From a virus, in IMG/VR virus record IMGVR_UViG_3300044712_000158, positions 1 to 45,153 of that record: a stretch of 45,153 nt of DNA, one strand, 5' to 3'. A program made the translations under genes and the position numbers. This document shows, one piece after another, positions 2,472 to 45,102 of this stretch; positions within the stretch are counted from its first letter, which is position 1, and each line of letters begins with the position of its first letter. Below the pieces are notes generated by a model. That model had not been told where the DNA came from. It worked only from the letters and a program-made list of their open reading frames with translations, and made no database searches.

Positions 2472-3219
2472 TGCACATGTAACAGTTGGCGAAGATTTGA
2501 CACGCTTCGATAAGTGTGGTAAACTGGTGTTAGAGAAGAAGCCCCCTGAAATTATTATCATGGGGGATTTTGTTTCTCTCGATAGTCTCTCTGATTTCGA
2601 CATGAATAAACGATTACTCATGGAGCAACGTCGATATGAAGAAGATATTAAAGCTGGTCGCATGGCTCTTGATAGGTTGCTTTCTCCTATACAGGGTCAT
2701 AATCAGGTAATGAGGATACAGCAAAAGAAACAGTATCGACCTAAGATTGTTTATCTGGAGGGTAATCATGAATTCAGAGCAAGGCGGTACGTCGAAACTC
2801 ATGCTGAATTGGAGGGATTCATGGCCGTGGATCGTGATCTTCGGCTCTCTGATTATTCTATTGATTTCATTCCTTATCGTAGTTTCTATCGAAATCATGA
2901 GACAACCTTCACTCATTGTCCCATGAACAAAGCTAATCAACCTATCAGTGGTAAGTATGCTGTAGCACGCGCTCTAGAACGCTACAATGGCAATATCGTT
3001 TTTGGGCATACCCATAGGTGGGAGTACATGGAAGAACGCCGTATGGACAGCGGTAAGAACTCTACGGCCCTAGCTTGTGGATGTTTCTTCTCAGAGACAC
3101 CTCACTACGCAGATGGTGCTGAGAACAACTGGTGGAAAGGAGTGACGATGCTTCATCATCATGATGAAGGATTTGATACAGAACAAATCAGTATGAACCG
3201 TCTATTCCAATTGTATTAA
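2449..3219 (+). CDS. Calcineurin-like metallophosphoesterase
   Basis: A 256-aa protein. The metal-binding motifs occur in canonical order: D8-A-H10 near the N-terminus, GD at 39-40, GNHE at about 105-108 and GHTH at about 186-189. The dimetal fold hydrolyses phosphomono- or diesters. In phages these enzymes are often encoded beside nucleases, but the physiological substrate is usually unknown. It could act on DNA ends like SbcD or on nucleotides. No SbcC-like partner is visible. The start overlaps the previous small ORF. Confidence 0.8.
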   Translation: MQTLLIPDAHVTVGEDLTRFDKCGKLVLEKKPPEIIIMGDFVSLDSLSDFDMNKRLLMEQRRYEEDIKAGRMALDRLLSPIQGHNQVMRIQQKKQYRPKIVYLEGNHEFRARRYVETHAELEGFMAVDRDLRLSDYSIDFIPYRSFYRNHETTFTHCPMNKANQPISGKYAVARALERYNGNIVFGHTHRWEYMEERRMDSGKNSTALACGCFFSETPHYADGAENNWWKGVTMLHHHDEGFDTEQISMNRLFQLY

Positions 3220-3229
3220 TGAGGGAGTT

Positions 3230-3460
3230 ATGAACACAAAAGGAGAAAAACTCGTACACGAAATGCATCTATTGTGGTCTAATCGGTGGAAGAAGCTGAA
3301 CAATAAATGGAAAGATCCCCTAACAGGAAAGGACTTCTCACGTGAACAAGCCATTAACATCGTTAAAAGCCGCGCTCGAAAGGAATGGATCAAACAGATC
3401 ACCGCTGAAGATTCAGCCAGGCGGCAGTCACTACAAGAGTCAGGCAATCCAACCAGTTGA
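3230..3460 (+). CDS. Hypothetical basic protein, 76 aa
   Basis: It begins 10 bases after the phosphoesterase with a GAGGGAG site and ATG at 3230. The product is basic, with Trp/Lys-rich segments (LLWSNRWKKLNNKWKDP, RARKEWIK). Its last 40 codons overlap the DUF3310 gene in another frame. No domain recognised. A role in nucleic-acid binding is only a guess from composition. Confidence 0.5.
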   Translation: MNTKGEKLVHEMHLLWSNRWKKLNNKWKDPLTGKDFSREQAINIVKSRARKEWIKQITAEDSARRQSLQESGNPTS

Positions 3461-3764
3461 ATACATTGTTGCTAATAAGCTCCCATTTATTGAAGGCAAT
3501 ATTGTCAAGTATATTACTCGATGGAGGAATAAAGGAGGCGTCAAAGATCTAGAAAAGATTATTCATTATGTTCAACTACTAATCTACTTTGAGGAGTACC
3601 GGAATGCTGTGGGTCAAAATCAAGAAGCTGCACCCGAATGCGGTGATCCCGTCGTATGCAACTCCTATGTCAGCAGGGATGGACATCTCGTGCCTTCAGG
3701 AATTACGACTTATGCCCAATCACACGGAGGTGGTCAAGACGGGGCTAGCTGTCGAGATACCTAA
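3342..3764 (+). CDS. DUF3310-domain protein
   Basis: The recognisable core is GGSHYKSQAIQPVEYI followed by EGNIVKYITRWRNKGG and a helix ending in LLIYFEEY. This is the DUF3310 signature common in phage nucleotide-metabolism clusters; some members are annotated as nucleotide kinases without proof. The only upstream start that includes the core is GTG 3342, inside the preceding gene. The frame stays open for about 54 codons after the core, running through the dUTPase gene in another frame. The core is secure; the start and the tail are not. Confidence 0.7.
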   Translation: MNKPLTSLKAALERNGSNRSPLKIQPGGSHYKSQAIQPVEYIVANKLPFIEGNIVKYITRWRNKGGVKDLEKIIHYVQLLIYFEEYRNAVGQNQEAAPECGDPVVCNSYVSRDGHLVPSGITTYAQSHGGGQDGASCRDT

Positions 3765-6656: not shown

Positions 6657-6740
6657 GGGGTAGTTGGACAGCGTAGTGAGTCCCACTGACTGTAAATCAG
6701 TTGCGAAAGCTTGTAGGTGCAATTCCTACCTGCCCCACCA
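6657..6740 (+). tRNA. tRNA-Tyr (GTA), CCA encoded
   Basis: A full cloverleaf can be drawn. The acceptor stem is GGGGTAG/CTGCCCC with one G-T pair, the D stem is GGAC/GTCC, and the anticodon stem is ACTGA/TCAGT with loop CTGTAAA (anticodon GTA). A long variable arm is present, as expected for bacterial Tyr tRNA. The T stem is GTAGG/CCTAC with loop TGCAATT, followed by discriminator A and an encoded CCA. The T loop deviates from the usual TTC start. It is read on the plus strand with the genes before it, and the palindrome just upstream could be a processing signal. Confidence 0.9.
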
Positions 6741-27998: not shown

Positions 27999-28220
27999 TT
28001 AACTATCCGTCATTCTTTCTGGGATATGGTCCAACAGTACATGTAATGTGTGATCCATCAGATAAGCATAATCCCCCAGTTCATCTGCAGTCAGAATAAC
28101 TTCCGGCACATCTGGGAAGATTGGATCTTCAGGATCTACAATCTCTGATCCAGTAGTGACCAGAGGATCTACTTCAAGAGGATTTCCCCCTCCTCGCATT
28201 GTGCGCCAGTATCTGATCAT
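27999..28220 (-). CDS. Hypothetical acidic protein, 73 aa
   Basis: The ATG forms ATGA with the stop of the ART-like gene before it. Acidic and Pro-rich middle (EVDPLVTTGSEIVDPEDPIF), then a helix with many His/Leu (DYAYLMDHTLHVLLDHIPER). It could be a connector of the tailspike, which follows directly. Function unknown. Confidence 0.5.
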   Translation of the reverse strand: MIRYWRTMRGGGNPLEVDPLVTTGSEIVDPEDPIFPDVPEVILTADELGDYAYLMDHTLHVLLDHIPERMTDS

Positions 28221-29731
28221 TGTTGTTCCTCATTCTTAAACATGCGCCCTAAAGCGTAAAGTGGAATAGTACCTGCCAACATATCTCGGGCATGTTTTTT
28301 ATTCTTGTTATACATAGCAGTTATAGGATTACGAGGTTGAGGCATTTCTGCTTGATCCAGAAACATAACCGAATTACGCACCAAACTACTAAGTGGCCCC
28401 TCTGCATCATTCCCATACTCAATGGCATTGATTCCGTATTTAGAATAAAGACGATTACTCATTGCTCTTGAGTATGCTTTATTTGCATCTAAACCTTTAT
28501 GCTTCGTGTAATAGTCTGCAAGTTTTGCTGTAGCAGTTGCGTCCTCATAATCAAAAATATTTCTACGCCGAAGTTCGTCTATGTAAGACATTGGATCTTC
28601 GTGGAACCTGTCAGGCATCGAGATTCGATTACCTTGAGGTAAGGTCACACCGTATACTTGAGAAGATTCATGGCGTAAAGGAATTAAGCTTCCACTCTCG
28701 ATTTCTTTAGTCCCTTGTTGTAGTATTCTCTCATTGAGTGGAGTAAAGATAGGCATGTTGGCTTCAGTAATCCCCCCAAAATGAGTGCCAACTGCTGCTC
28801 TGGATACTCCTGAATCAAATCCAGTGAATCCTTTAGGAGATCCATGAAGATACATAATAGGAACATGCTTCGCTTCTAGAATCTTCTGAAGTTGTTCTTC
28901 TGTAATCCTTGGACCAATACTAGGAGCAGATCCAACATCAGGCATAACATGCTGCGTAGTTTCTTCTAAAGTATCTAGAGGTCCGAGATCTGGATCAACT
29001 CTTCCCAATTCTCTACCACGATTTGTGACATCATCTCTATATAGATCTTTAAAGAGTGGACTAGCTTTTGGATTACCATAGATAGGGAGGGATACCGTAC
29101 CATCACCATGCCGCTGATACAGCGGACTATGCCAATTATATCCTTCTGCAGTTACATCAGGAAGTTCTCCCCAGATTGATCCTTCATTATATGCACTCCT
29201 ACGCATATAAGGTCCAGTGGGCATGATAACTCCGCCCTCACTATTTAACTTTGCTGCTCGTACAATCATGTTAGCAAAGTTTTCTCGAACATCGTCTGAA
29301 CCAAATGCAGAATGATACACTTGATTCCATAGAGCTTGCATATCATCTGTATGCTCTAATGCAGTTCTGAACGCTCCGATAGAACTCTTACCTATAGGAG
29401 ACATCGCTGCGAATTTAGCTGCAGCAGAACCAAATTTACCGAGAGGTAGTAACATATCCACTCCCGGCGTAATCATAGAACCAACGGGATCAGACTCGAT
29501 AATCTTCCCAGACTTCTCCTTGTTAGCCATAATCCATCTATCCAGATCAGTCAACTGAGCATCATCTGCCATAGTAGACTGCCGGATAGCCCCAGCCATC
29601 AGAAGAGGAAAATCCACAGCATTAGCCATAGACATATTCCCCATATTATACAGGATCTCTTTCGCTCGACCAGATTCAGGAAGAGCAGTTCCCTCTTGTT
29701 GTCTTTGTCGAGTACTAAAGAATCCGGCCAT
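28217..29731 (-). CDS. Virion-type protein with ADP-ribosyltransferase-like C-terminal domain
   Basis: A 504-aa protein, first in the late operon, with a GGAG site before 29731. The N-terminal half is helical and resembles ejection-type proteins (DFPLLMAGAIRQST, LLPLGKFGSAAAKFA). From about residue 290 it has YLHGSPKGFTGFDSG, VGTHFG, then VTLPQGNRISMPDRFHEDP and finally GINAIEYGNDAEG...VMFLD. This order (HG[ST], GxHFG, GYDGI-Y-type end) is that of ART-like domains found in large polyvalent phage proteins. It may modify a host target after injection. Activity is inferred; the catalytic Glu is not certain. Confidence 0.55.
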   Translation of the reverse strand: MAGFFSTRQRQQEGTALPESGRAKEILYNMGNMSMANAVDFPLLMAGAIRQSTMADDAQLTDLDRWIMANKEKSGKIIESDPVGSMITPGVDMLLPLGKFGSAAAKFAAMSPIGKSSIGAFRTALEHTDDMQALWNQVYHSAFGSDDVRENFANMIVRAAKLNSEGGVIMPTGPYMRRSAYNEGSIWGELPDVTAEGYNWHSPLYQRHGDGTVSLPIYGNPKASPLFKDLYRDDVTNRGRELGRVDPDLGPLDTLEETTQHVMPDVGSAPSIGPRITEEQLQKILEAKHVPIMYLHGSPKGFTGFDSGVSRAAVGTHFGGITEANMPIFTPLNERILQQGTKEIESGSLIPLRHESSQVYGVTLPQGNRISMPDRFHEDPMSYIDELRRRNIFDYEDATATAKLADYYTKHKGLDANKAYSRAMSNRLYSKYGINAIEYGNDAEGPLSSLVRNSVMFLDQAEMPQPRNPITAMYNKNKKHARDMLAGTIPLYALGRMFKNEEQQ

Positions 29732-29778
29732 TATAACTCCAATTGGAAAAAATTACTTCGTACCTAGAAGGGGTCTTG

Positions 29779-29805
29779 ATATTTTTATTAATTTATAAAA
29801 TAATT
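29779..29805. other. 27-bp pure A/T tract, candidate DNA-unwinding element
   Basis: Twenty-seven consecutive A or T bases lie just upstream of the late operon start and 20 bases from the first DnaA-box-like repeat. In bacterial and plasmid origins an A/T tract beside DnaA boxes is where the strands open. It could equally be part of a minus-strand late promoter; I see no clean -35/-10 pair. Confidence 0.5.
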
Positions 29806-29824
29806 CACCCCACCCCCTTCGCTC

Positions 29825-30017
29825 TTGTCCACTTTTCATCCACAGGCTATGCACAGGGCTATCAACAGTTTGTCAACAAGATAACCACGGTCTATCTCCA
29901 GACATACGCACATGATATACACATAGATATGAACAGAGATAGGCACATGGTTATACCCAGGTTATGCACACACATATACACATGATACTCACAGAGTTGT
30001 ACCGATAGATATAAGCA
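29825..30017. repeat. Array of 17 DnaA-box-like 9-mers, probable origin
   Basis: Nine-base elements of the form WTATNCACA begin at 29825, 29836, 29847, 29859, 29870, 29881, 29892, 29904, 29915, 29927, 29939, 29951, 29962, 29974, 29985, 29997 and 30009. All steps are 11 or 12 bp. The one at 29962 is TTATGCACA, a full match to the DnaA box TTATNCACA; most others differ at one to three positions. All face the same way. No convincing gene overlaps. A replication origin, a DnaA-titration site or the iterons of another binding protein would each explain it. Confidence 0.75.
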
Positions 30018-30196: not shown

Positions 30197-30225
30197 TTGA
30201 CAAGGCATACAGCCAGGTGTATAGT
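30197..30225 (+). promoter_or_regulatory. Sigma70 promoter P1
   Basis: TTGACA (30197-30202), a 17-base spacer, and TATAGT (30220-30225). The predicted start is near 30232. It drives the single gene at 30311-30829, and the transcript passes boxA almost at once. Confidence 0.85.
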
Positions 30226-30310: not shown

Positions 30311-30829
30311 ATGTCAACGAAACCAACCGCAGCTACCCGTAAGCTTATCACCGTCTCCACTGCTCTTGAGTCTGCTATCTCTGGAGAGAAACAAGCCCTT
30401 CAGAAGATGCAGGACATTTACAGGGCATTGGCTACTGTAGCGAACGGGAACAAGGCTCTTACCACGTTTACGGCGGAGTCAATTAAGCCGGTACTCAAAG
30501 CGGTCTATGCTGAGTGCCAGAAGCGGTCAGACTGGCCGAAGGAAGGCGACAAGGCCAAGGGTGAGAAAGAAGCACGTGGAACCGAAACCGGGGACTTCTG
30601 GAATAGGTTTAGTGCATGGCTCCGGGAGCAGGTCAAGAAACAGGCCGGAACAGGCAACAGGGTTTCCGGTGACTGGCAAGAACGGCTGGTCAAGGCTCTT
30701 GCCAAAATCTGCGCTCAAGACAACATCGACCCCGAGGATATGACCATCGAAGAGCTGGTGGAACACCTCGGCAAAGCTGATCTGTTCAAAGAGTCCCTGG
30801 ACAAACAGCTTGAGAAGGATGCAGCATAA
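30311..30829 (+). CDS. Unknown early protein, 172 aa
   Basis: The first gene of the P1 unit, preceded by a long leader and a GGAAAG site. It is helical, with an Ala/Lys-rich N-terminal region (ALESAISGEKQALQKMQDIY), a charged linker and an acidic end (IDPEDMTIEELVEHLGKADL). Its codon use is more G+C-rich than in nearby genes, suggesting high expression or another source. Its position beside the putative origin and strong promoter fits an early host-takeover or replication-control role, but no family is recognised. Confidence 0.7.
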   Translation: MSTKPTAATRKLITVSTALESAISGEKQALQKMQDIYRALATVANGNKALTTFTAESIKPVLKAVYAECQKRSDWPKEGDKAKGEKEARGTETGDFWNRFSAWLREQVKKQAGTGNRVSGDWQERLVKALAKICAQDNIDPEDMTIEELVEHLGKADLFKESLDKQLEKDAA

Positions 30830-32894: not shown

Positions 32895-33110
32895 ATGGAT
32901 GGCAACGGCGACGGCAACGGCGACGGCGATGGTTACGGCAATGATAATGGCAACGGCACCGGCAACGGCTACGGCTACGGCAACGGCTACGGCACCGGCA
33001 CCGGCTACGGCTACGGCAACGGCTACGGCACCGGCACCGGCAACGGCTACGGCAACGGCAATGGCTACGGCGATGGTTACGGCAATGGCTACGGCTACGG
33101 CACTGGCTAA
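32895..33110 (+). CDS. Gly/Tyr/Asn-rich low-complexity protein, 71 aa
   Basis: Built almost entirely of GNGYG, GTGTG and GDGYG units encoded by repeated GGC AAC / GGC TAC hexamers. The ATG lies a few bases after the preceding stop, and no strong site is seen. The repeat DNA also leaves an open antisense frame, which is rejected. A terminator follows. The product could be a disordered linker or a spacer that varies in copy number. Translation is plausible but unproven. Confidence 0.45.
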   Translation: MDGNGDGNGDGDGYGNDNGNGTGNGYGYGNGYGTGTGYGYGNGYGTGTGNGYGNGNGYGDGYGNGYGYGTG

Positions 33111-33123
33111 CGAATTCATTCCT

Positions 33124-34680: not shown

Positions 34681-36447
34681 ATGGCAACCTGTAGTCTGTG
34701 TGGTACTTCTGAAAATGTCCGTCGTGTAAAAATCGCTGGTCGTTATCGCCGTTCTTATCTGTGCGAAGATTGCCAACACCGTTATTACTCAGAAGTTTGT
34801 GAATGCTGCGGTGGTCATACCAATTCCACAATCAGTATTCAGGTGAATCTGACTGACGAAGGCATCGTTGAAAAGAAGTGCTGTGGTATTTGCGCCAATA
34901 ATATGGACTTGCACTGGTGTCCTGAGTGTGGTCTTCGGCATACCGCTCCTTATATGGGATGCGGGTCTGATTTCCGCGCTCCTATTGATCTTCTTCCTAC
35001 ACATATTGCCGATGGAAATGCCTCTCCGTGGAGGGATCATCAGTATTCTCCTGATTTGATCATTGATGTTTTCGGGCGAGAAAGCGAAGATCATCCTTTT
35101 CTTTGCTGGAAACACATGCAGGAATACTGGACAAAGATTAATTCAATGGAGTACGGACAGTGTGTGCATTGTACGGAGCGTACCTCGTCAAAAAACAGCG
35201 ATGGGCAGTTTGTGTGTAAACACTGTCAGCGGCACATGAGAGTGTGTAAGGATTGTGGAAGCAGCTTTCCTTCAACTTGTTCTCCTTATGGGGGTCAAGG
35301 ACTTTGTGCTACATGCGCCTCAAAATACACTCGATGTGAGTACTGCGGAGTGTGCTATCTGAAATCAGAATCCCATAAACACATTAAACGAGTGGAAGGG
35401 AGAATTCGCTGCACAAAATGTTTGCCGGATGATTTTGATCGTAGGTACATCCTGTGCGAATGTGGAAATTATCACCTGAATGATCTTGAAAAGAAAAAGC
35501 GCAATTTCATTCGCCAGTATGGGGGCGCATTCCTGGTCGAATATGAATGGGATACGTCTCTCCAGGAGTTTTTTCGTACTCACTGTCAGAACTGTATCAA
35601 CAAGTCTGTCGGGTATTGCACAACCTGCAATAAGCTCATTGTGGGTGGAGTATTGAAAATCTCTGAAGGTGGTGCTATTTGCGTTCCTTGTTACGCCAAC
35701 AAGGTTTCTCCTCCCATCTTGTCTTACAGCGAGAAGAGTATCCTCGGTATGTATGGCAGTAATTCCCTGAAATATGGCGCTGAGATTGAGTTGGAATTCT
35801 CCGATAGTGCAGCTCATTCCACTGCGCGGACCATTCTCAAGAAACATGTGCCGGTAAGTGAGATGTACTACAAGCATGATGGTTCTCTCAGTACGGGATT
35901 TGAAGCCGTCACCATGCCAATGGATTTTGACTACTTCATGGGCTGTGGTATTGGTGCTGCGATTGATGAAATGGCATCAACTCTCGGCCACAAATTCCGT
36001 AATAATTGTGTGGATTCTGCAGGGCTGCATATCCATATGAGTAAAAAAGCGTTTACTTCTCTGCAGTTGCTCAAATTCCTAGATTTCTTCAACGAGTACA
36101 CCGAATTTGTCGAAGTGATTGCTCGTAGAAAGGCGAAGGATTATTGCAAAAAATTCACGGATTATCGGGGAGTTAATCTCCGCAAAATGGCAAAAGACAA
36201 GGGTGGTACTGAAAAGTATACGATGGTTAATCTTCGTCCCGAATATACCATCGAAATTCGCATCTTCAAAGGAGTATGGACTTCTGACCAGCTTTTCTAT
36301 TCCCTGCAATTTCTCGATGCATTGTTCAATCTGACGCGGATTTCAACATTGAAATCCCCTCCTACGCCGGATCTTCTCATTGCTTATGTGAGCAAGCATA
36401 AGAAGATCTATCCTCACCTCAACAAACTCTTCAAGGCGACTGCCTAG
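34681..36447 (+). CDS. Amidoligase with large zinc-ribbon N-terminus
   Basis: A 588-aa protein. Residues 1-345 carry about fourteen CxxC-type pairs (CSLC, CEDC, CPEC, CVHC, CKDC, CEYC, CTTC and others), a chain of zinc ribbons. The C-terminal part has the Amidoligase_2 pattern: KYGAEIELEF (about 364-373), GFEAVTMPM, AGLHIHMS (about 446), KFTDYR and TIEIRIFKG (about 523). This is a glutamine-synthetase-like fold for ATP-dependent carboxylate-amine ligation. Next come a class II glutamine amidotransferase and an ATP-grasp enzyme, a combination predicted for peptide or protein tagging. The substrate is unknown. The TAG stop lies in palindrome copy 8. Confidence 0.8.
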   Translation: MATCSLCGTSENVRRVKIAGRYRRSYLCEDCQHRYYSEVCECCGGHTNSTISIQVNLTDEGIVEKKCCGICANNMDLHWCPECGLRHTAPYMGCGSDFRAPIDLLPTHIADGNASPWRDHQYSPDLIIDVFGRESEDHPFLCWKHMQEYWTKINSMEYGQCVHCTERTSSKNSDGQFVCKHCQRHMRVCKDCGSSFPSTCSPYGGQGLCATCASKYTRCEYCGVCYLKSESHKHIKRVEGRIRCTKCLPDDFDRRYILCECGNYHLNDLEKKKRNFIRQYGGAFLVEYEWDTSLQEFFRTHCQNCINKSVGYCTTCNKLIVGGVLKISEGGAICVPCYANKVSPPILSYSEKSILGMYGSNSLKYGAEIELEFSDSAAHSTARTILKKHVPVSEMYYKHDGSLSTGFEAVTMPMDFDYFMGCGIGAAIDEMASTLGHKFRNNCVDSAGLHIHMSKKAFTSLQLLKFLDFFNEYTEFVEVIARRKAKDYCKKFTDYRGVNLRKMAKDKGGTEKYTMVNLRPEYTIEIRIFKGVWTSDQLFYSLQFLDALFNLTRISTLKSPPTPDLLIAYVSKHKKIYPHLNKLFKATA

Positions 36448-36458
36448 ATTTCTAGGCA
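36441..36458. repeat. 18-bp palindrome, copy 8
   Basis: TGCCTAGATTTCTAGGCA; includes the amidoligase stop and lies just before the AAAGGATA site of the next gene. Confidence 0.85.
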
Positions 36459-36476
36459 AGAAAGGATATTACAGAT

Positions 36477-37424
36477 ATGTGCATTGCAATCGTCCAGCTT
36501 CCCGGTGTCCGCGTAACTGATGAAAGACTCTTTGCTTGCTATACGAACAATGAAGATGGTTGTGGTATGGCGTATATTCATGAAGATAAAGTGATTGTCT
36601 TCAAGACCCTTGAGTTTGCCGCTTTCAAGGAAGAGTATATTAGGCAGTTTGAGGCGCATCCCACTAGCCATTTCCTTCTTCACTTTCGTATCAGGACTCA
36701 GGGACACATCAATGAGTCTAACTGTCATCCGTTTCAAGTCAGTGATACGATGGCATTCATCCATAATGGCACCATTCCCAAGATGCCGAAATGTGATCAG
36801 CATTCGGACACATGGTATTTCAATGAAGAAATTCTCAAGCAACTACCCGAAGGGTGGATGTACAACACAGCTATCCACAAACTGATCGAACCGTTTATCA
36901 GTTGGTCAAAGATCGCTGTTCTCAATATCACCAATGAAGTTCTGATCCTGAATGAATCTTCAGGGGTATGGGATCAGGAAGACGGCAACTGGTACAGTAA
37001 TACAACGTACAAGGCTCCTCCATTCTGGTCTAAGAAGGAAAAGAAGAGCAAACATGGTAATACGAGTGAGTGGTGGGTTGGCACACAGCGTCGTAGATAT
37101 CATAACAAGCATCTTCAGGCATTTGATTATGAGAACATGATGTGGAGGGATATTGATGCAGTCGGTTTCTATATCCACACTCTCAAAGAAGATGATGAAC
37201 TGTATTTCAAGAGTAGTCAATCCAATTACTATGCGCTTCCTGCTCCGAAGGAGGTTGCTGACGGACTCGTTGACTGCGAGATCTGTGGGCAAAAGTACTC
37301 TCCCACAGGAATGGCTCTGTGTGCTTTCGAGACAGAGAAAGACATCTTCTATATCTGTGCTACTTGTCAGAAAGAACTTGAAGATTACATCACTCTAGGG
37401 GTTATTACTATCGTTGCCGAATAG
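36477..37424 (+). CDS. Class II glutamine amidotransferase (Ntn-type) with zinc ribbon
   Basis: A 315-aa protein starting MCIAIVQ: Cys2 becomes the N-terminal nucleophile after Met removal. HFRIRTQGHINESNCHPF (about 69-86) and HNGTI (96-100) are the usual GATase II motifs. It releases ammonia from glutamine for a partner, here presumably the amidoligase or the ATP-grasp enzyme. The C-terminus has CEICGQKYSPTG and CATCQKELEDY, a zinc ribbon that may dock on its partners. It starts 30 bases after the amidoligase. Confidence 0.85.
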   Translation: MCIAIVQLPGVRVTDERLFACYTNNEDGCGMAYIHEDKVIVFKTLEFAAFKEEYIRQFEAHPTSHFLLHFRIRTQGHINESNCHPFQVSDTMAFIHNGTIPKMPKCDQHSDTWYFNEEILKQLPEGWMYNTAIHKLIEPFISWSKIAVLNITNEVLILNESSGVWDQEDGNWYSNTTYKAPPFWSKKEKKSKHGNTSEWWVGTQRRRYHNKHLQAFDYENMMWRDIDAVGFYIHTLKEDDELYFKSSQSNYYALPAPKEVADGLVDCEICGQKYSPTGMALCAFETEKDIFYICATCQKELEDYITLGVITIVAE

Positions 37425-37432
37425 GGGGATAT

Positions 37433-37936
37433 ATGCCCGCACTTGAATGCCGCCTAGTACAGCGTAAAACATGCAGTAATTGTCGTCATATTCGTGACCG
37501 TGTTTCATTGAATACGGCTGTATGTGATCATACAAACACACCAGTAGTTTTTCATCAAATCTGTGGTAATCACGAATTTAACTCTAACGGAAGGAGCTTC
37601 TATCGTGACAATCTTGAATCGACGCCCCCGTATCCGCATACTGCCGTACAAGATGACATCTCAATCTGCGAAGAGACTTTCCCGCGCCTTGGGGATTTTG
37701 CGGCTGCAGCCATCCCTACACCAGAGCCAGTTTCGCCCCCGCCCGCAGGATGTGATAATCAATTGGGGGAACAGCAGGTATATTACACAGGTTGGGTGTA
37801 TGCTCAACCAATGCCATTCGATTTCCTTAGCCCAGAACAAACTGCTAACATTTCAGACTCTCTCTCCTATCGTACCGTGTCCCGAGTGGTCTACGGATAT
37901 GATCCAGGCGAAGGAATGGATAGCAGCGGGTCATAA
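37433..37936 (+). CDS. Cys-rich protein overlapping the ATP-grasp gene, up to 167 aa
   Basis: The first 57 codons lie before the ATP-grasp start and have a zinc-type set: TCSNCRHI, AVCDHTN, ICGNHEF. This is common in small phage Cys proteins. The frame then stays open for 332 more bases in another frame of the ATP-grasp gene, with a Pro-rich, low-similarity product (PTPEPVSPPPAG). Either the protein is really 167 aa, or only the N-terminal part matters. A frameshift joining it to the ATP-grasp ORF is less likely because that gene has its own site. Confidence 0.55.
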   Translation: MPALECRLVQRKTCSNCRHIRDRVSLNTAVCDHTNTPVVFHQICGNHEFNSNGRSFYRDNLESTPPYPHTAVQDDISICEETFPRLGDFAAAAIPTPEPVSPPPAGCDNQLGEQQVYYTGWVYAQPMPFDFLSPEQTANISDSLSYRTVSRVVYGYDPGEGMDSSGS

Positions 37937-38393
37937 GGTCTTTGCTCGTATCACGTTGACAGGTTGTGGTGGAAGCGGTATAATAGTTTGTAACGACATA
38001 GAGTCCCTTCCCCCTGCACCACTGTATACCAAGAGAGTTAAGATAGAACATGAGTACAGAATTCATGTATTCAAAGAATCTGTCATTGACTTCGTAATGA
38101 AAAAGAAACTGTCATCAGAACAAAGAGCGGAAAGGGGAGTCGAAGTAGACTCCCTTATTCGCAATCATTCTAATGGATGGGTATTTGCTCGGGAAGGAGT
38201 GACGATTACTGATGAACTCGCTCAGACAGCGGGTGCTGCTGTGGCATCTCTCGGCCTTGACTTTGGAGCCGTCGATATCTGTACCACCAGAGATGGCAGG
38301 GTGTGTGTGTTTGAAGTCAACACCGCTCCTGGGATTGAAGGAACGACGTTGGAAAAATATGTAGCGGCATTTAAATCTTGCCTAGGAATCTAG
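37605..38393 (+). CDS. ATP-grasp ligase
   Basis: A 262-aa protein from GTG 37605, which has GGAAGG upstream and gives the family-like opening MTILNRRPRIRILPYKMTSQ. DVIINWGNSRY follows. FARITLTGCGGSGI (about 113-126) is the nucleotide-binding glycine loop, EYRIHVFK a central strand, and VFEVNTAPGIEGTTLEKYV the metal-binding E-x-N plus closing loop. It would activate a carboxylate as acyl phosphate and join it to an amine. With the amidoligase and amidotransferase it forms one pathway. The stop lies in palindrome copy 9. Confidence 0.8.
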   Translation: MTILNRRPRIRILPYKMTSQSAKRLSRALGILRLQPSLHQSQFRPRPQDVIINWGNSRYITQVGCMLNQCHSISLAQNKLLTFQTLSPIVPCPEWSTDMIQAKEWIAAGHKVFARITLTGCGGSGIIVCNDIESLPPAPLYTKRVKIEHEYRIHVFKESVIDFVMKKKLSSEQRAERGVEVDSLIRNHSNGWVFAREGVTITDELAQTAGAAVASLGLDFGAVDICTTRDGRVCVFEVNTAPGIEGTTLEKYVAAFKSCLGI

Positions 38394-38419: not shown

Positions 38420-38623
38420 ATGGCACTATCAATTAACCCCGCAGCTTATGGTACACATTGCAAAGCATGTGATGCTTTGCTGAATGAAAAACATCATGAT
38501 CCCGAACTTTGTTCTACGTGTTTGGAGGTGGTTTCAACCCTTACAGGAGATCTCTACCATGACGATGTCGAAGATGAATTCATGTCTACCCGAGAAGTAT
38601 CGCTCTCAGTTGCTGAATATTAA
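38420..38623 (+). CDS. Zinc-ribbon mini-protein, 67 aa
   Basis: ATG 38420 has AAGGAGAG upstream. HCKACDALLNEKHHDPELC, then STCLEVV, is a CxxC...CxxC ribbon known from many phage early regions. The acidic tail overlaps the primase start by 65 bases. Likely an adaptor; function unknown. Confidence 0.65.
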   Translation: MALSINPAAYGTHCKACDALLNEKHHDPELCSTCLEVVSTLTGDLYHDDVEDEFMSTREVSLSVAEY

Positions 38624-39428
38624 TGAAGAAGCACGGTATAATCACGAAGCATGTGGCGATACCAAACAACGTCTGTATGTGAAACGTACCAAATCTGGGT
38701 GGCTTTACCATTGCCATAACTGCGCACCTCAGATGTCGGGGTTCATGCGTGACACGGGAATATTGACGCCATCTCAGACTATCAGAGCAGCTAATAAAGA
38801 GATTGAATTATTTAAAAGCTCGAAGGAATCTGCTAAAGGCTTGCCGGAAGATTTCTCTTCGACAATTTCCCTCGACGGTTTGGCGTGGCTAGCCAAGTAT
38901 AACGTCACAACCGCAGAACGAGACTTCTATGGTTTTGGGTATAGTAGTCGCTATAATCGTCTGGTTCTTCCTCTGTTTAATATGTCAGGATTGATCGGAT
39001 GGCAGGGTAGAGCATTGGGTAAGATTACATCTGATTATCCCAAGTATATGACATTTGTAAACGGGCATCAACCTCGGTTCTGGTTTGATTCTCGTCACGG
39101 CATTAACACCCATCGTGAGTATGAAGATCGCCTCAAGATCGTATTAGTAGAAGACATTGTATCAGCCGTTAAAGTAGGACGGCAATATCGCACCCTTGGA
39201 CTGATTGGATCTTATATCAGAGAGGAGATGATTGTATGGTTCTTGAAGGTACACAAGTTGCTCCCCAATTTCAAGATTTACATCTGGCTTGACCCTGATA
39301 AGCATACTGAGGCTCACTTATACGCGGGTAAACTACGGAAATACGGCCTCAATGCAGTGGTAGTATCTACTGCATGTGATCCAAAAGAGGCTAATCCCAC
39401 AATGATACATACTCTGATTGGAGGATAA
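38559..39428 (+). CDS. DNA primase, T7 gp4 primase-like
   Basis: A 289-aa protein from ATG 38559 (AGGAG at 38545). An N-terminal zinc module with CGDTKQRLYVKRTKSGWLYH and CHNCAP is followed by the TOPRIM-type core: LVLPLFNMSGLIGWQGRAL, KIVLVEDIVSAVKVG (about 191-205) and IWLDPD (about 240). It makes RNA primers for lagging-strand synthesis. It lacks a helicase domain; the helicase is encoded separately at 41350, and seven small ORFs lie between them. Confidence 0.85.
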   Translation: MTMSKMNSCLPEKYRSQLLNINEEARYNHEACGDTKQRLYVKRTKSGWLYHCHNCAPQMSGFMRDTGILTPSQTIRAANKEIELFKSSKESAKGLPEDFSSTISLDGLAWLAKYNVTTAERDFYGFGYSSRYNRLVLPLFNMSGLIGWQGRALGKITSDYPKYMTFVNGHQPRFWFDSRHGINTHREYEDRLKIVLVEDIVSAVKVGRQYRTLGLIGSYIREEMIVWFLKVHKLLPNFKIYIWLDPDKHTEAHLYAGKLRKYGLNAVVVSTACDPKEANPTMIHTLIGG

Positions 39429-41349: not shown

Positions 41350-42588
41350 ATGGTTACATTAACTGTTCTGAAATTATTCACCAATAATAAGGAGTACTAT
41401 ACAAAATACAATCCTACTATACGTACCATTACTCTTGAACCGGAGATCAAAGATCTGTTTGCTACTATCCATCGGTACTACCAGAAGTATGAACATCATA
41501 CCTACATCAGTAAGGACGAGTTCCTTTCTTTCTTTGCTCTCGAATATCCCGGCAAGAAAGATAAGCAACTTTACATCCAACTGATTGAGCAGTTCTATGG
41601 ATTAGATACCTCGGATAGTCTTGCATCAGACGTGATCCATCAGCTAATTGAAGTAGACTATGCCAACAAGATTGTCAATATGATGCTGCCCTCTGTGTCA
41701 GGAGAACGCTTCGGACTCATGGCAGCAGTACGAGAACTTGTTGACAAGTGCCTAGAATTCCAGGCACAAGACCACGAAGAAAAACAAATCTTTGTTGAGG
41801 ATGGACTCGATGAACTAATTGATAAGACTGCAACTGATGGATTATCGTGGAGGCTTAATTGCCTTAGAGGAAGTCTTGGCCCTTTAAGTGGAGGATCTTT
41901 AGGTCATGTTTTTGCGCGTCCCGAATCTGGTAAGACTACGTTCTTACACTCAGAAGTATCTTATCTCGCATCGCAGCTTACCAATGGAGAACAAATCCTC
42001 TGGTTCAATAATGAGGAAGCAGGGTCACGTGTCAAGTTGCGATTGTTCACAGCCGTGTGTGGTATGCCACTGCACACACTCGTAGAGAACAGGACAACTG
42101 CCAAAGAGAAGTTCAATGAGAAGGGAGGACTTCGCGTTAAGCTCTATGATTCTGCTAATATTTCTGTGGAAGAAGTGGAGAGGTTGTGCCGAGAGTACAA
42201 ACCCCGATTTGTAGTGATTGATCAGGGAGATAAACTATCTTATAAAGGAGACTCGTCCAGTGGGAACGGTGCCGACAGACTTAAAGGAGTGTACGACAAT
42301 CTTAGGGAAGTTGTTAAGCGATGTAATGCTGAATGGAAAATGGACATGCTTACAGTCGGACAAGCTGATGTCGCGGCTGAAGGTAGAAAGTGGCTCCTAC
42401 AGTCTAATCTGGACTCTGGGAAAACTGGAAAACCAGGAGCTTTCGATTACATTATCGGGATTGGTAAGTCTCTCGAACCTTCAGACGAATTCACCCGATA
42501 CGTCTCACTATGCAAAAATAAACTCACAGGGGATCATGGACGGTACGTTGTCACGATTGATCCTGCCACCGCGAGATACATCGACTGA
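41350..42588 (+). CDS. Replicative DNA helicase, DnaB-like
   Basis: A 412-aa protein with a helical N-terminal domain and a RecA-type core. The P-loop is FARPESGKTTF (about 188-198), preceded by LGPLSGGSLGH. ILWFNNEE is the glutamate strand, FVVIDQGDKL the Walker B region, and DMLTVGQADVAAEG a sensor or H4-like part. It unwinds DNA ahead of the polymerase and works with the separate primase. A degenerate copy of the palindrome (GTGCCTAGAATTCCAGGCAC, 41749-41768) lies inside the coding region. Confidence 0.85.
   Translation: MVTLTVLKLFTNNKEYYTKYNPTIRTITLEPEIKDLFATIHRYYQKYEHHTYISKDEFLSFFALEYPGKKDKQLYIQLIEQFYGLDTSDSLASDVIHQLIEVDYANKIVNMMLPSVSGERFGLMAAVRELVDKCLEFQAQDHEEKQIFVEDGLDELIDKTATDGLSWRLNCLRGSLGPLSGGSLGHVFARPESGKTTFLHSEVSYLASQLTNGEQILWFNNEEAGSRVKLRLFTAVCGMPLHTLVENRTTAKEKFNEKGGLRVKLYDSANISVEEVERLCREYKPRFVVIDQGDKLSYKGDSSSGNGADRLKGVYDNLREVVKRCNAEWKMDMLTVGQADVAAEGRKWLLQSNLDSGKTGKPGAFDYIIGIGKSLEPSDEFTRYVSLCKNKLTGDHGRYVVTIDPATARYID
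41749..41768. repeat. Degenerate palindrome, copy 10, inside helicase gene
   Basis: GTGCCTAGAATTCCAGGCAC: arms of six bases are perfect and one base pair in the inner part is mismatched. It is read in frame as CLEFQA, so the protein constrains it. Confidence 0.6.
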
Positions 42589-42606: not shown

Positions 42607-43695
42607 ATGAATATTGCCATTGACGTAGAGACAACGAAAGCACCTAATCATTTTCCTTGGTCAAAGGACTCCGCATTAGTGTGCCTGTCAATGGCTAAGG
42701 ATGATGGTACTCTCAGGACATGGTTCTTTAACCATCCATGTCGGAACAAGTATCATCCTGATCAAACCTATGCAGAATCTTTGGAGGAAATACAGAATGA
42801 AATCAATGCTAGTGATCGTATTATCGCTCACAATCTTAAATTTGATTATCATTGGATGCGTCATATGGGCCTTGATCTGTCTTCCGTTCCTTTGTATTGT
42901 ACTATGGTTGTGGAATATAACATCAATGCCCATTACAAGCAGGAAGGAATCTCTCTCAGAGAACTCTGTAAAAAGTACGGTATCCCAGAAAAGAAAGACA
43001 AAGTAAAAATTTATTGGGATGCTGGCGCAGATACATGGGAAGTACCTGCTGAAATATTACGGGTGTATTGTGAGCAGGATACTATCAATGCTCTCGCCTT
43101 ATTCTCAAAACAAGTGCCTAGAATTCTAGGCAGTAACCTCTCAAAAATAATCTCACTAGAAATGGAGACACTCCGATGCATAGCTGACATGGAAAGAAAT
43201 GGCATGACAGTTGACAGTGAACAGCTTTCGATGTATAATGAATTATACACGAAGGACTTGGAGGTTATTGATGAACGCTTACGAACCTGTCTCTCTATTG
43301 AAAATCCAGACTCACCAGACCAACTCAGCAAGGGTCTATTTGGGTACAAAGATACCCATCAGCCTCTCTTCGATGCTAAGAAATTTGGGGTCACTGCTGC
43401 CTCTAAAGAAGGTTTATTCTCTGTGGCAGTACCTGAGATCCTCAAACTCAAGGCTAAGACACCGGAACAACGGAGAATACTTGACGATCTGCGTGATCGA
43501 AGTCGTCTCTCCCAACTACAGTCAACTTACTTTAGAGGTTTACAGAAATTTGTTGATGGAGGTGTTATTCATCATACCATTAACCAGTGCATCACAGTCA
43601 CAGGGAGGACGAGCTGCAGTCGTCCTAATCTCCAGAACCAACCCAGAGGGAACACTGGTCCAGTTAAGAAATGTTTTACAACACGTTGGAGGTGA
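42607..43695 (+). CDS. DNA polymerase, family A, N-terminal part (split gene)
   Basis: A 362-aa part with the 3'-5' exonuclease: D6 and E8 in AIDVETT, D80 in HNLKFD, and YCEQD (154-158). The thumb and the start of the palm follow, with TGRTSCSRPNLQNQPR (about 333-348). It stops right after KKCFTTRWR, shortly before catalytic motif A, because a zinc-ribbon ORF and an HNH ORF are inserted. The rest of the palm and fingers is encoded at 44370-45102. If both parts are made they could assemble into a working enzyme, as known for other split phage proteins. Confidence 0.85.
   Translation: MNIAIDVETTKAPNHFPWSKDSALVCLSMAKDDGTLRTWFFNHPCRNKYHPDQTYAESLEEIQNEINASDRIIAHNLKFDYHWMRHMGLDLSSVPLYCTMVVEYNINAHYKQEGISLRELCKKYGIPEKKDKVKIYWDAGADTWEVPAEILRVYCEQDTINALALFSKQVPRILGSNLSKIISLEMETLRCIADMERNGMTVDSEQLSMYNELYTKDLEVIDERLRTCLSIENPDSPDQLSKGLFGYKDTHQPLFDAKKFGVTAASKEGLFSVAVPEILKLKAKTPEQRRILDDLRDRSRLSQLQSTYFRGLQKFVDGGVIHHTINQCITVTGRTSCSRPNLQNQPRGNTGPVKKCFTTRWR
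43115..43132. repeat. 18-bp palindrome, copy 11, inside DNA polymerase gene
   Basis: TGCCTAGAATTCTAGGCA, perfect, encoding PRILG within the polymerase between exonuclease and thumb. A perfect copy inside a conserved gene is unexpected if these elements are only gene-end signals. Confidence 0.85.
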
Positions 43696-43698
43696 GTG

Positions 43699-43878
43699 AT
43701 GCCTATATACAATTACTTATGTATTGACTGTTCATTTGAATTTGAGAAGTTTCATCACAGCCATCAAGAGTACAATGAGTTCCTCTTAGAAGCACGTTGC
43801 CCTGAATGTGGTAGTCATCGCATCACACGTATCCCATCCCATCCTGGATACCGCAGAGATCATACGGTTAAGCCATGA
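43699..43878 (+). CDS. FmdB-like zinc-ribbon protein, 59 aa
   Basis: ATG 43699 lies 3 bases after the polymerase stop, with GGAGGTG upstream. MPIYNYLCIDCSFEFEKFH, then RCPECGSHRITRIPS, is the FmdB/regulatory zinc-ribbon pattern. It is inserted, with the HNH gene, between the two polymerase parts. Such ribbons can help DNA recognition by the accompanying endonuclease, but that is inference. Confidence 0.7.
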   Translation: MPIYNYLCIDCSFEFEKFHHSHQEYNEFLLEARCPECGSHRITRIPSHPGYRRDHTVKP

Positions 43879-44354
43879 TTGTCGATGCTGACCTTCCAGA
43901 ACAATTTTTACAAAGAATAGGAGAAATAGATCATAATGGTTGTTGGATCTGGAAAGGAAACTTAACTGGAAGAGATCGTAGAGCATATATCTGGTGGAAA
44001 GGAGGAACCCGAGTAGCAGCAAGAGTTCTGTATGAATATATTCATAGAATAGAACTTCCTGCAGAGATTCATGTTCTACATCGTTGTGATAATCCTAAAT
44101 GTGTTAATCCAGATCACCTCTATTTAGGCACTTCTAAAGACAATGCTTTAGATAGAGAATACAAAGGAAGAAATAAGGCATTTGCATCAGGATTTCAAGG
44201 AATAAAGAATGGTGCAGTTAGACTTACAGAAGATCAGGTAAGACAAATACGTGCGTCCAATAAATCAACTAGAGAATTGTATACTGAGTATAATGTTAGC
44301 CAAATGACAATACTCAACATTAAATCTAGGAAAAGTTGGAAGCATCTAGAATAG
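43875..44354 (+). CDS. HNH homing endonuclease inside the split polymerase
   Basis: A 159-aa protein with ATGA coupling to the zinc-ribbon ORF. GCWIWKGNLTGRDRRAYIWW, then EIHVLHRCDNPKCVNPDHLY, is the HNH core. EDQVRQIRASNKSTRELYTE is a helix-turn-helix of the type that follows it in I-HmuI-like proteins. It presumably cuts polymerase genes lacking the insert, near motif A, and spreads by repair. A+T-rich codon use contrasts with the polymerase. No intron core fits, since ORFs fill the insert. Confidence 0.85.
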   Translation: MIVDADLPEQFLQRIGEIDHNGCWIWKGNLTGRDRRAYIWWKGGTRVAARVLYEYIHRIELPAEIHVLHRCDNPKCVNPDHLYLGTSKDNALDREYKGRNKAFASGFQGIKNGAVRLTEDQVRQIRASNKSTRELYTEYNVSQMTILNIKSRKSWKHLE

Positions 44355-44369
44355 GAGGTGGTATGGCTT

Positions 44370-45102
44370 ATGATCGTAGATTGCGACCTCAGCCAAATTT
44401 GAATGGAGGATCTGTGCAGAATTAACCCAAGACAAAACCATGATGAAGGAGATAATGGAAGGGAGAGATCAACACGCATTTACTTGCACACAACTGATGG
44501 AACTTCCACTGACAAAGGAGAATCGTACTGATGCAAAAATCTTTAACTTCAGAGCAATCTATGCTAATCCCGAAACTGCAGCCTATGCCTATTTCATGGA
44601 CCCGAGAATGCCTAATTTCTCTCAGCGTAAATGGGACAAAATTTTAGAGGGATTTTTTACTCATTACTCAGGCATGGTAGCTGCTCACGCTAAGTGGGTA
44701 CAGCAAGTACGCAGCACTGGAATATTCATTGGTCCTACAGGACGCAGATGGGTGTTCAAGAAAAAACAAAAGAGAGGGATACTTGATTACTCAGTCTCAG
44801 ATATCTACAACTATCCAGTGCAAGGAACGTCTGGTGATCTGATAAAGATTGCCATGATCAAGATCAGGCAGCAGATGCTTGAACACAAGATGCAGTCTCT
44901 CATGGTCAATACAGTCCATGATAGTATCATCTTCGATGCACCGGAGAATGAAGTAGAAGAGTTGGGTAAGATTGCTTTGGATGTTTTCCATCGTATCCCC
45001 GAATATGCATTCAAGTATTTCAACTGGAAGATTACCGTGCCTATTACGGGAGAAGTAGAATACGGCCCATCATGGGGCGACATGAAACCACTGGAGGCTT
45101 AA
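44370..45102 (+). CDS. DNA polymerase, family A, C-terminal part (needs +1 shift at 44400)
   Basis: ATG 44370 has TAGGAGGTG upstream and begins MIVDCDLSQI, which is palm motif A (DxSQxE), but the next codon is UGA (44400-44402). Skipping T44400 gives EWRICAELTQDKTMMKEIME and the rest of the polymerase without a break. Motif B is RTDAKIFNFRAIY (usual YG is YA), and motif C is VNTVHDSIIFD. The frame without motif A could start only at ATG 44440. The conserved Glu lies exactly after the shift. A programmed +1 frameshift (AUU UGA), a broken gene or a one-base sequence error are the options. Confidence 0.75.

Follow-up and report, generated by a model that had tools for sequence, protein, structure and literature searches.

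A tandem array of 17 DnaA-box-like repeats at the divergent junction of a phage genome: a candidate origin using host DnaA

The DNA analysed here, referred to as the window, is a whole IMG/VR phage record of 45,153 bp. We found that a non-coding junction in this genome carries 17 DnaA-box-like 9-mers, all on the + strand, in a tandem array spanning 29825-30017. The array was confirmed as real by chain and shuffle tests, a de novo hidden Markov model (HMM) and autocorrelation; the motif, the spacing, the retention of the array by close relatives and its genomic setting are likewise observed. The array is very probably bound by DnaA. We propose, with a probability of about 0.5, that it is a host-DnaA oligomerisation array that both binds DnaA and serves as the replication origin of the phage. 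Binding, melting, helicase loading and origin use at the array are what we infer from these observations.

Structure and spacing of the array

The units start at 29825, 29836, 29847, 29859, 29870, 29881, 29892, 29904 and 29915 (units 1-9) and at 29927, 29939, 29951, 29962, 29974, 29985, 29997 and 30009 (units 10-17), all on the + strand. The steps in order are 11, 11, 12, 11, 11, 11, 12, 11, 12, 12, 12, 11, 12, 11, 12 and 12 bp, and all 16 thus correspond to gaps of 2 or 3 bp between 9-mers. The repeated 9-mers fit the DnaA-box consensus TTATNCACA. An earlier sequence-only reading had described 17 recurrences of WTATNCACA. The 17 same-strand units and their 11/12-bp steps hold, but the exact motif occurs only three times (29915, 29962 and 29974), and the remaining units have at least one mismatch, with 15 of the 17 matching at least six of the eight fixed positions. 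The box at 29962-29970 (+ strand, TTATGCACA) had been singled out as a full consensus match, and it is indeed the only such copy in the array; the next-best boxes, ATATACACA, are at 29915 and 29974 on the + strand. Because there are only three exact copies, the array consists mostly of weak boxes.

A chain score was defined as the best same-strand chain of boxes with steps limited to 11 or 12 bp. The array scored 34.8, whereas the maximum among 5000 dinucleotide shuffles of the region was 8.2, and the real sequence reached at most 13.8 with other step pairs (8/9 to 24/25). Autocorrelation of the array region gave peaks at 11, 12, 23, 35, 45 and 58 bp with z values of 3.4 to 5.2, and the array is the strongest 11.5-bp periodicity anywhere in the 45 kb (z 6.7), so that the proposed period of 11-12 bp stands clearly above background. 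The array had also been called helically phased, which is only approximately correct. The mean step of 11.5 bp is off the 10.5-bp repeat of B-DNA, so the boxes do not lie on one helix face, and the step is better described as gaps of 2-3 bp than as helical phasing.

A periodic HMM with 11(+1) states, which was supplied with no motif at the start, reached a log-likelihood of -173 on the array, compared with -252 (sd 4.8) for shuffles, i.e., about 16 sd higher. The motif recovered de novo was G-W-T-A-T-N-C-A-C-A-(G/T), in which the fifth box column holds only 0.18 bits and the fifth base is therefore free. A fifth position without base preference is a signature of the DnaA box, and since the model was given no motif, its recovery supports the DnaA reading. 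In vivo, E. coli DnaA is reported to prefer gaps of 2-3 bp between boxes; a base added to a 3-bp gap strongly reduces binding, whereas a base removed does not (PMC11317965). Because a 9-mer plus 2 or 3 bp makes 11 or 12 bp, the only steps used here, all 16 steps have the gap that suits cooperative head-to-tail binding.

Genomic setting and relatives of the phage

The array lies between a leftward structural arm, whose genes run from 29731 leftward to about 7 kb, and a rightward early/replication arm starting at 30311. The first gene of the leftward arm (28217-29731, - strand) encodes a 504-aa protein without a recognised domain, and the first early gene to the right (30311-30829, + strand) encodes 172 aa. 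Three replication genes were recognised on the + strand, namely a DNA primase (38484-39428; PHROG 47, 3e-27), a DnaB-like replicative helicase (41350-42588; PHROG 19, 4e-38) and a family A DNA polymerase in pieces (42607-45102), with the exonuclease part at 42607-43695 and the polymerase part at 44440-45102. An HNH endonuclease gene sits between these two parts. Although primase, DnaB and PolA are present, no initiator family was recognised among the scanned phage genes, and Pfam DnaA domains III and IV were found neither in this phage nor in its relative G001 (described below).

On the 5' side of the array, an AT-rich segment resembling a DNA unwinding element (DUE), or a promoter, occupies 29774-29806. 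Of all 30-bp segments in the genome, 29776-29805 within it has the lowest stability (rank 0 both for AT content and for nearest-neighbour stability); it adjoins box 1, the place of an unwinding element at the edge of a box cluster. The segment contains TTATT at 29785-29789 and a sigma-70-like match at 29776-29804. A C-rich block, CACCCCACCCCC (29806-29817, + strand), lies just before box 1, and alignment revealed an upstream block, AAAAAATTAC..TCG..CC.AGAA.GGG (29747-29775, + strand). Before the first early gene, a consensus scan found a promoter-like site, TTGACA-17-TATAGT (30197-30225, + strand), with 11 of 12 matches, which is not evidence of function.

The cumulative GC skew of the window has its minimum at the array, at 30.0 kb, and its maximum at about 7 kb, nearly opposite on a 45-kb circle. 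In G001, the minimum is at 29.0 kb and the array at 29.3-29.4 kb. Since skew and gene direction change together, the skew alone is no proof of an origin. A circular map of the window phage is likely: the record ends are bridged by an ATG-started ORF, and the gene order of G001 is a circular permutation, although no homologue of the end-spanning ORF was found in G001.

Other repeats and genes were observed in the two arms. An 18-bp palindrome, TGCCTAGAATTCTAGGCA, occurs with close variants in about 11 copies (6630, 30030, 30926, 31885, 32542, 33698, 34628, 36443, 38381, 41751, which is weaker, and 43117), and its loose pattern was seen 25 times where shuffling predicts 4. The copies are nearly all in the early/replication arm, often shortly before a start codon, with one just past the array, and the palindrome looks like the operator of a phage regulator. 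A six-bp tandem repeat, GGCAAC/GGCTAC, in about 34 copies covers a small ORF at 32899-33112. Amidoligase-like, glutamine amidotransferase and ATP-grasp genes stand in a row at 34681-38393, and similar genes are found in the phages QDWS535 and MW202697. A tRNA-Tyr gene (6657-6740), for which no plasmid match was found, is near the convergence of the two arms.

The same array was sought in related phages, as the sequence-only reading had suggested, and was found at the same junction in two of them. G001 (43 kb) has 71% identity to the window phage in terminase, 45-47% in DnaB and 55% in PolA, and carries seven boxes at exact 11-bp steps in the same orientation. The second, L250 (terminase 58%), has six boxes, and a further relative, L307, has four. 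The window phage, G001 and L250 have the upstream block in common, as well as a C-rich block before box 1, and G001 has a very unstable stretch of 50 bp about 100 bp upstream of its box 1. More distant terminase relatives have one or two consensus boxes, inverted pairs or none, and the boxes or pairs are often 1-2 kb upstream of terminase. MEP401 (Zobellviridae), MW202697 and QDWS535 share the gene plan, the divergent junction and a skew minimum at or near it. However, their junctions carry no array, and no similar periodicity was found at the junctions of these three phages or of f30-Xaj. The junction is therefore older than the array, and the long array is a property of a subgroup.

The terminase relatives came from a terminase query of IMG/VR; IMG/VR scans with the two array-flanking genes gave no matches. 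In the cultured-phage collection, neither a DNA search with 25-34 kb nor a search with the 504-aa gene found near relatives, and the junction DNA gave short matches only. No terminase relative was found in bacterial genomes.

Box arrays in other viruses, plasmids and bacteria

Arrays of this kind are not unique to the window phage, and shorter ones occur in many phages and bacterial genomes. A scan of IMG/VR for three TTATCCACA at gaps of 2-3 bp, which gives a lower bound, returned at least 120 stretches (72 clusters once similar loci were merged). The controls returned 16 stretches for TTATCCACA at gaps of 4-7 bp and a single stretch for the reversed 9-mer at gaps of 2-3 bp. The excess over both controls is specific to motif and spacing, which supports the earlier suggestion of selection on spacing. 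The viral arrays listed avoid ORFs, with 26% lying inside an ORF of at least 100 aa compared with 73% of the DNA. Divergent gaps are weakly favoured among these arrays (p 0.05). Skew extrema are not (p 0.15), and a general location of viral arrays at skew extrema is thus not supported. A viral AT-rich polarity opposite to the bacterial one seemed significant at first but disappeared after related loci were merged, and the idea was rejected.

Phages of E. coli, Shigella, Klebsiella and Vibrio carry TTATCCACA arrays or clusters, and cyanophage S-RIM44 has three TTTTCCACA at 12 bp. The latter 9-mer is the cyanobacterial DnaA box (PMC4674748). These sequences suggest that phage arrays carry the box type of their host, with one cyanophage lineage as the basis. 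In bacterial genomes, tandem runs of 3-6 boxes are common (at least 117 stretches). The window array, with 17 units of which 15 are good boxes, ranks with the longest runs seen, and those of viral contig L058 (13 boxes) and plasmid pSOE2 (15 good boxes in two runs) are comparable to it.

Several arrays were recorded individually. The 3.8-kb plasmid pSOE2 of Candidatus Pantoea edessiphila (L395) has its two runs, each of 7-8 boxes of the TTATCCACA type spaced at 11-12 bp, at about 3390-3630, possibly a DnaA-only origin. The single-stranded DNA phage Microvirus mar31 (L233) has a non-coding gap (3162-3280) with eleven units spaced at 11 bp, each an exact TTTTCCACAGG, and other microviruses gave similar matches. 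In the unrelated Arthrobacter phages Seahorse (L235, 36-94) and Gorpy (L323, 36-86), box runs lie less than 100 bp from the genome end; a C-run, CCTCCCCCCACCC, stands ahead of them and resembles the block that precedes box 1 in the window. T7-like Berlinvirus phages have arrays in the space that separates the packaging genes from the first early genes, which is at the genome end or close to it. In open-access papers, we found none on tandem DnaA-box arrays in phages as a class, and the occurrence of DnaA-spaced box arrays in many phages appears to be undescribed in that searchable literature.

Possible roles and comparison with known systems

The host-DnaA reading has gained from the de novo motif, the agreement with the 2/3-bp gap rule (PMC11317965), the lack of a DnaA homologue in the phage, the retention of the array by close relatives and the finding that a cyanophage uses a box of the host type. 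In the mechanism that we propose, host DnaA, probably in its ATP form, would dock first on the few good boxes and then fill the adjacent weak boxes head to tail, since the 2-3 bp gaps bring each next monomer into contact with the last. The resulting filament would help to melt the adjoining AT-rich segment (29774-29806), a DnaB-type helicase would be loaded there, and forks would depart along the two divergent arms. Several findings favour an origin: both the window and G001 have their skew minimum at the array, the 30 bp of lowest stability in the window are beside box 1 with the C-rich block between, the phage encodes primase, DnaB and PolA with no recognised initiator, and the array stands in the same junction of G001 and L250. 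Against it, the phage boxes and E. coli R1 point in opposite directions with respect to the AT-rich side, the phages MEP401, MW202697 and QDWS535 do without an array at an otherwise similar junction, and T7-like phages carry such arrays. A requirement for DnaA is not known in T7-type replication, and a DnaA origin is not expected at the position of the T7-like arrays; a role as a sink, promoter switch or DNA-entry site is therefore possible.

The sequence-only reading had offered an origin or a sink for DnaA, and the evidence leans to the origin without separating the two. As a sink, which we consider a rather unlikely sole role, the array would bind host DnaA and stop or desynchronise initiation on the host chromosome, freeing replication parts and nucleotides for the phage, and no origin function would be required. 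The 17 sites per genome are multiplied by phage replication, similar arrays occur in the T7-like phages just mentioned, the number of boxes varies freely among relatives (17, 7, 6 and fewer), and high-affinity titration loci exist in E. coli (PMC5835720). However, mostly weak boxes suit cooperative assembly better than tight capture, 17 sites are few before replication, and the place of the array in the window and G001 is origin-like. It is improbable that the array is instead a transcription switch, by which DnaA would control divergent promoters, for example by holding off the structural arm or turning on the early one. The two arms do diverge from the array, with the AT-rich segment towards the structural arm and a promoter-like site towards the early arm, and DnaA is also a transcription factor (PMC11317965), but known DnaA-regulated promoters have one or two box pairs rather than 17 boxes, and control of the early arm seems tied to the separate repeated palindromes.

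The prospects are poorer still for a DNA-entry or genome-end device, in which an array near the first-entering end would let DnaA pause, hold or protect incoming DNA. In several cultured phages, arrays or runs are indeed found near genome ends or in terminal repeats: in VB_Ship_A7 (22-149), in Gorpy and Seahorse (the last 100 bp), in Phinky (at about 300 bp) and in the left terminal repeat of T5-like phages, and the injection stop signal of T5 has been noted to contain DnaA boxes (PMC13250531). However, the point at which many records are opened is arbitrary, non-coding DNA is more frequent towards genome ends, and the T5 boxes do not form a regular tandem array. A phage-encoded protein that merely resembles DnaA in specificity, also raised by the sequence-only reading, found no positive support and is very improbable. 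Many small early proteins of the phage belong to no recognised family, but neither the phage nor G001 has a DnaA-like domain, DnaA itself fits both the motif with its free fifth base and the 2/3-bp gap rule, and unrelated phages have the same arrays built from the box of their host. Chance, low-complexity or coding sequence is scarcely credible, as no shuffle came near the array chain score. An 80-aa ORF (29743-29985) overlaps the array and matches, weakly and locally, an ORF that lies over the array of G001. This match does not extend beyond the boxes, the mixture of steps of 11 and 12 bp shifts the reading frame, and G001 retains boxes and steps, not a protein. Together with the HMM and shuffle results, these findings led us to reject the coding explanation, which had been raised earlier as an ORF kept in place of the repeats.

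The proposed origin at the junction may be one instance of something wider, although we put this forward only tentatively. Long runs of weak same-strand boxes at 11/12 bp could be a widespread, repeatedly evolved viral device for polymerising host DnaA, in both tailed and single-stranded DNA phages, which here would drive a DnaA-dependent origin and at high copy would also draw DnaA off the host chromosome. Takeover or block of host initiation by lytic phages is known mostly via phage proteins. If the proposal is true, phages would have a protein-free route in a piece of DNA that attracts the host initiator and takes its spacing from the 2-3 bp rule of DnaA, and the arrays would be natural substrates for studying DnaA filament formation on weak sites. 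Since they occur in many unrelated phages, unannotated in the records examined, the question is testable in E. coli, for example with phage P483.

Other box clusters and repeats resemble the array in part. Like datA and other DnaA-titrating loci of E. coli (PMC5835720), it is a box cluster outside oriC, but datA has a few high-affinity boxes with an IHF site, whereas the array is a regular tandem of mostly weak boxes with one full consensus box only. The E. coli double DnaA boxes identified by ChIP-seq (PMC11317965) share the gaps of 2 or 3 bp and the tolerance of weak boxes, but comprise two boxes each, compared with 17 in the phage array. The T5 injection stop signal (PMC13250531) also places DnaA boxes in non-coding phage DNA, although sparsely. 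Arrays in P483, VB_Ship_A7, BD1/BD5, Microvirus mar31, L058 and plasmid pSOE2, none of them annotated, share the same-direction boxes at 11/12 bp in mostly non-coding DNA; they are mostly shorter than the window array and often have more consensus boxes. Those of T7-like phages differ from it in position, with packaging genes on one side and early genes on the other. Iteron origins of plasmids and phages likewise combine direct repeats in tandem with a nearby AT-rich region at a likely origin. However, iterons are near-identical repeats of about 20 bp bound by a cognate Rep, whereas the array has loose host-type 9-mers in 11/12-bp units, and no Rep or initiator family was found among the scanned genes.

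In its parts and principle, the array would work like a DnaA-oligomerisation region (DOR), and it is a candidate DnaA-dependent origin that departs from E. coli oriC in one geometric feature. E. coli oriC has two opposed half-arrays and a chain score of 3.8, compared with one unbroken run of 17 and 34.8 in the phage. In E. coli, R1 lies on the minus strand and its 3' side faces the AT-rich segment, whereas in the phage the AT-rich segment is on the 5' side of the array. DnaA of T. maritima oligomerises irrespective of box direction (PMC10316083), so an R1-like direction is not known to be universal. The Thermotoga origin is described with the order AT-rich, GC-rich, box 1 (PMC10316083), and the phage junction shares this order, with a C-rich block in the GC-rich place. 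With the DOR of bacterial oriC, the phage array shares same-direction boxes, a mixture of weak and strong sites, gaps suited to head-to-tail DnaA, and an AT-rich segment and a GC-rich block beside box 1.
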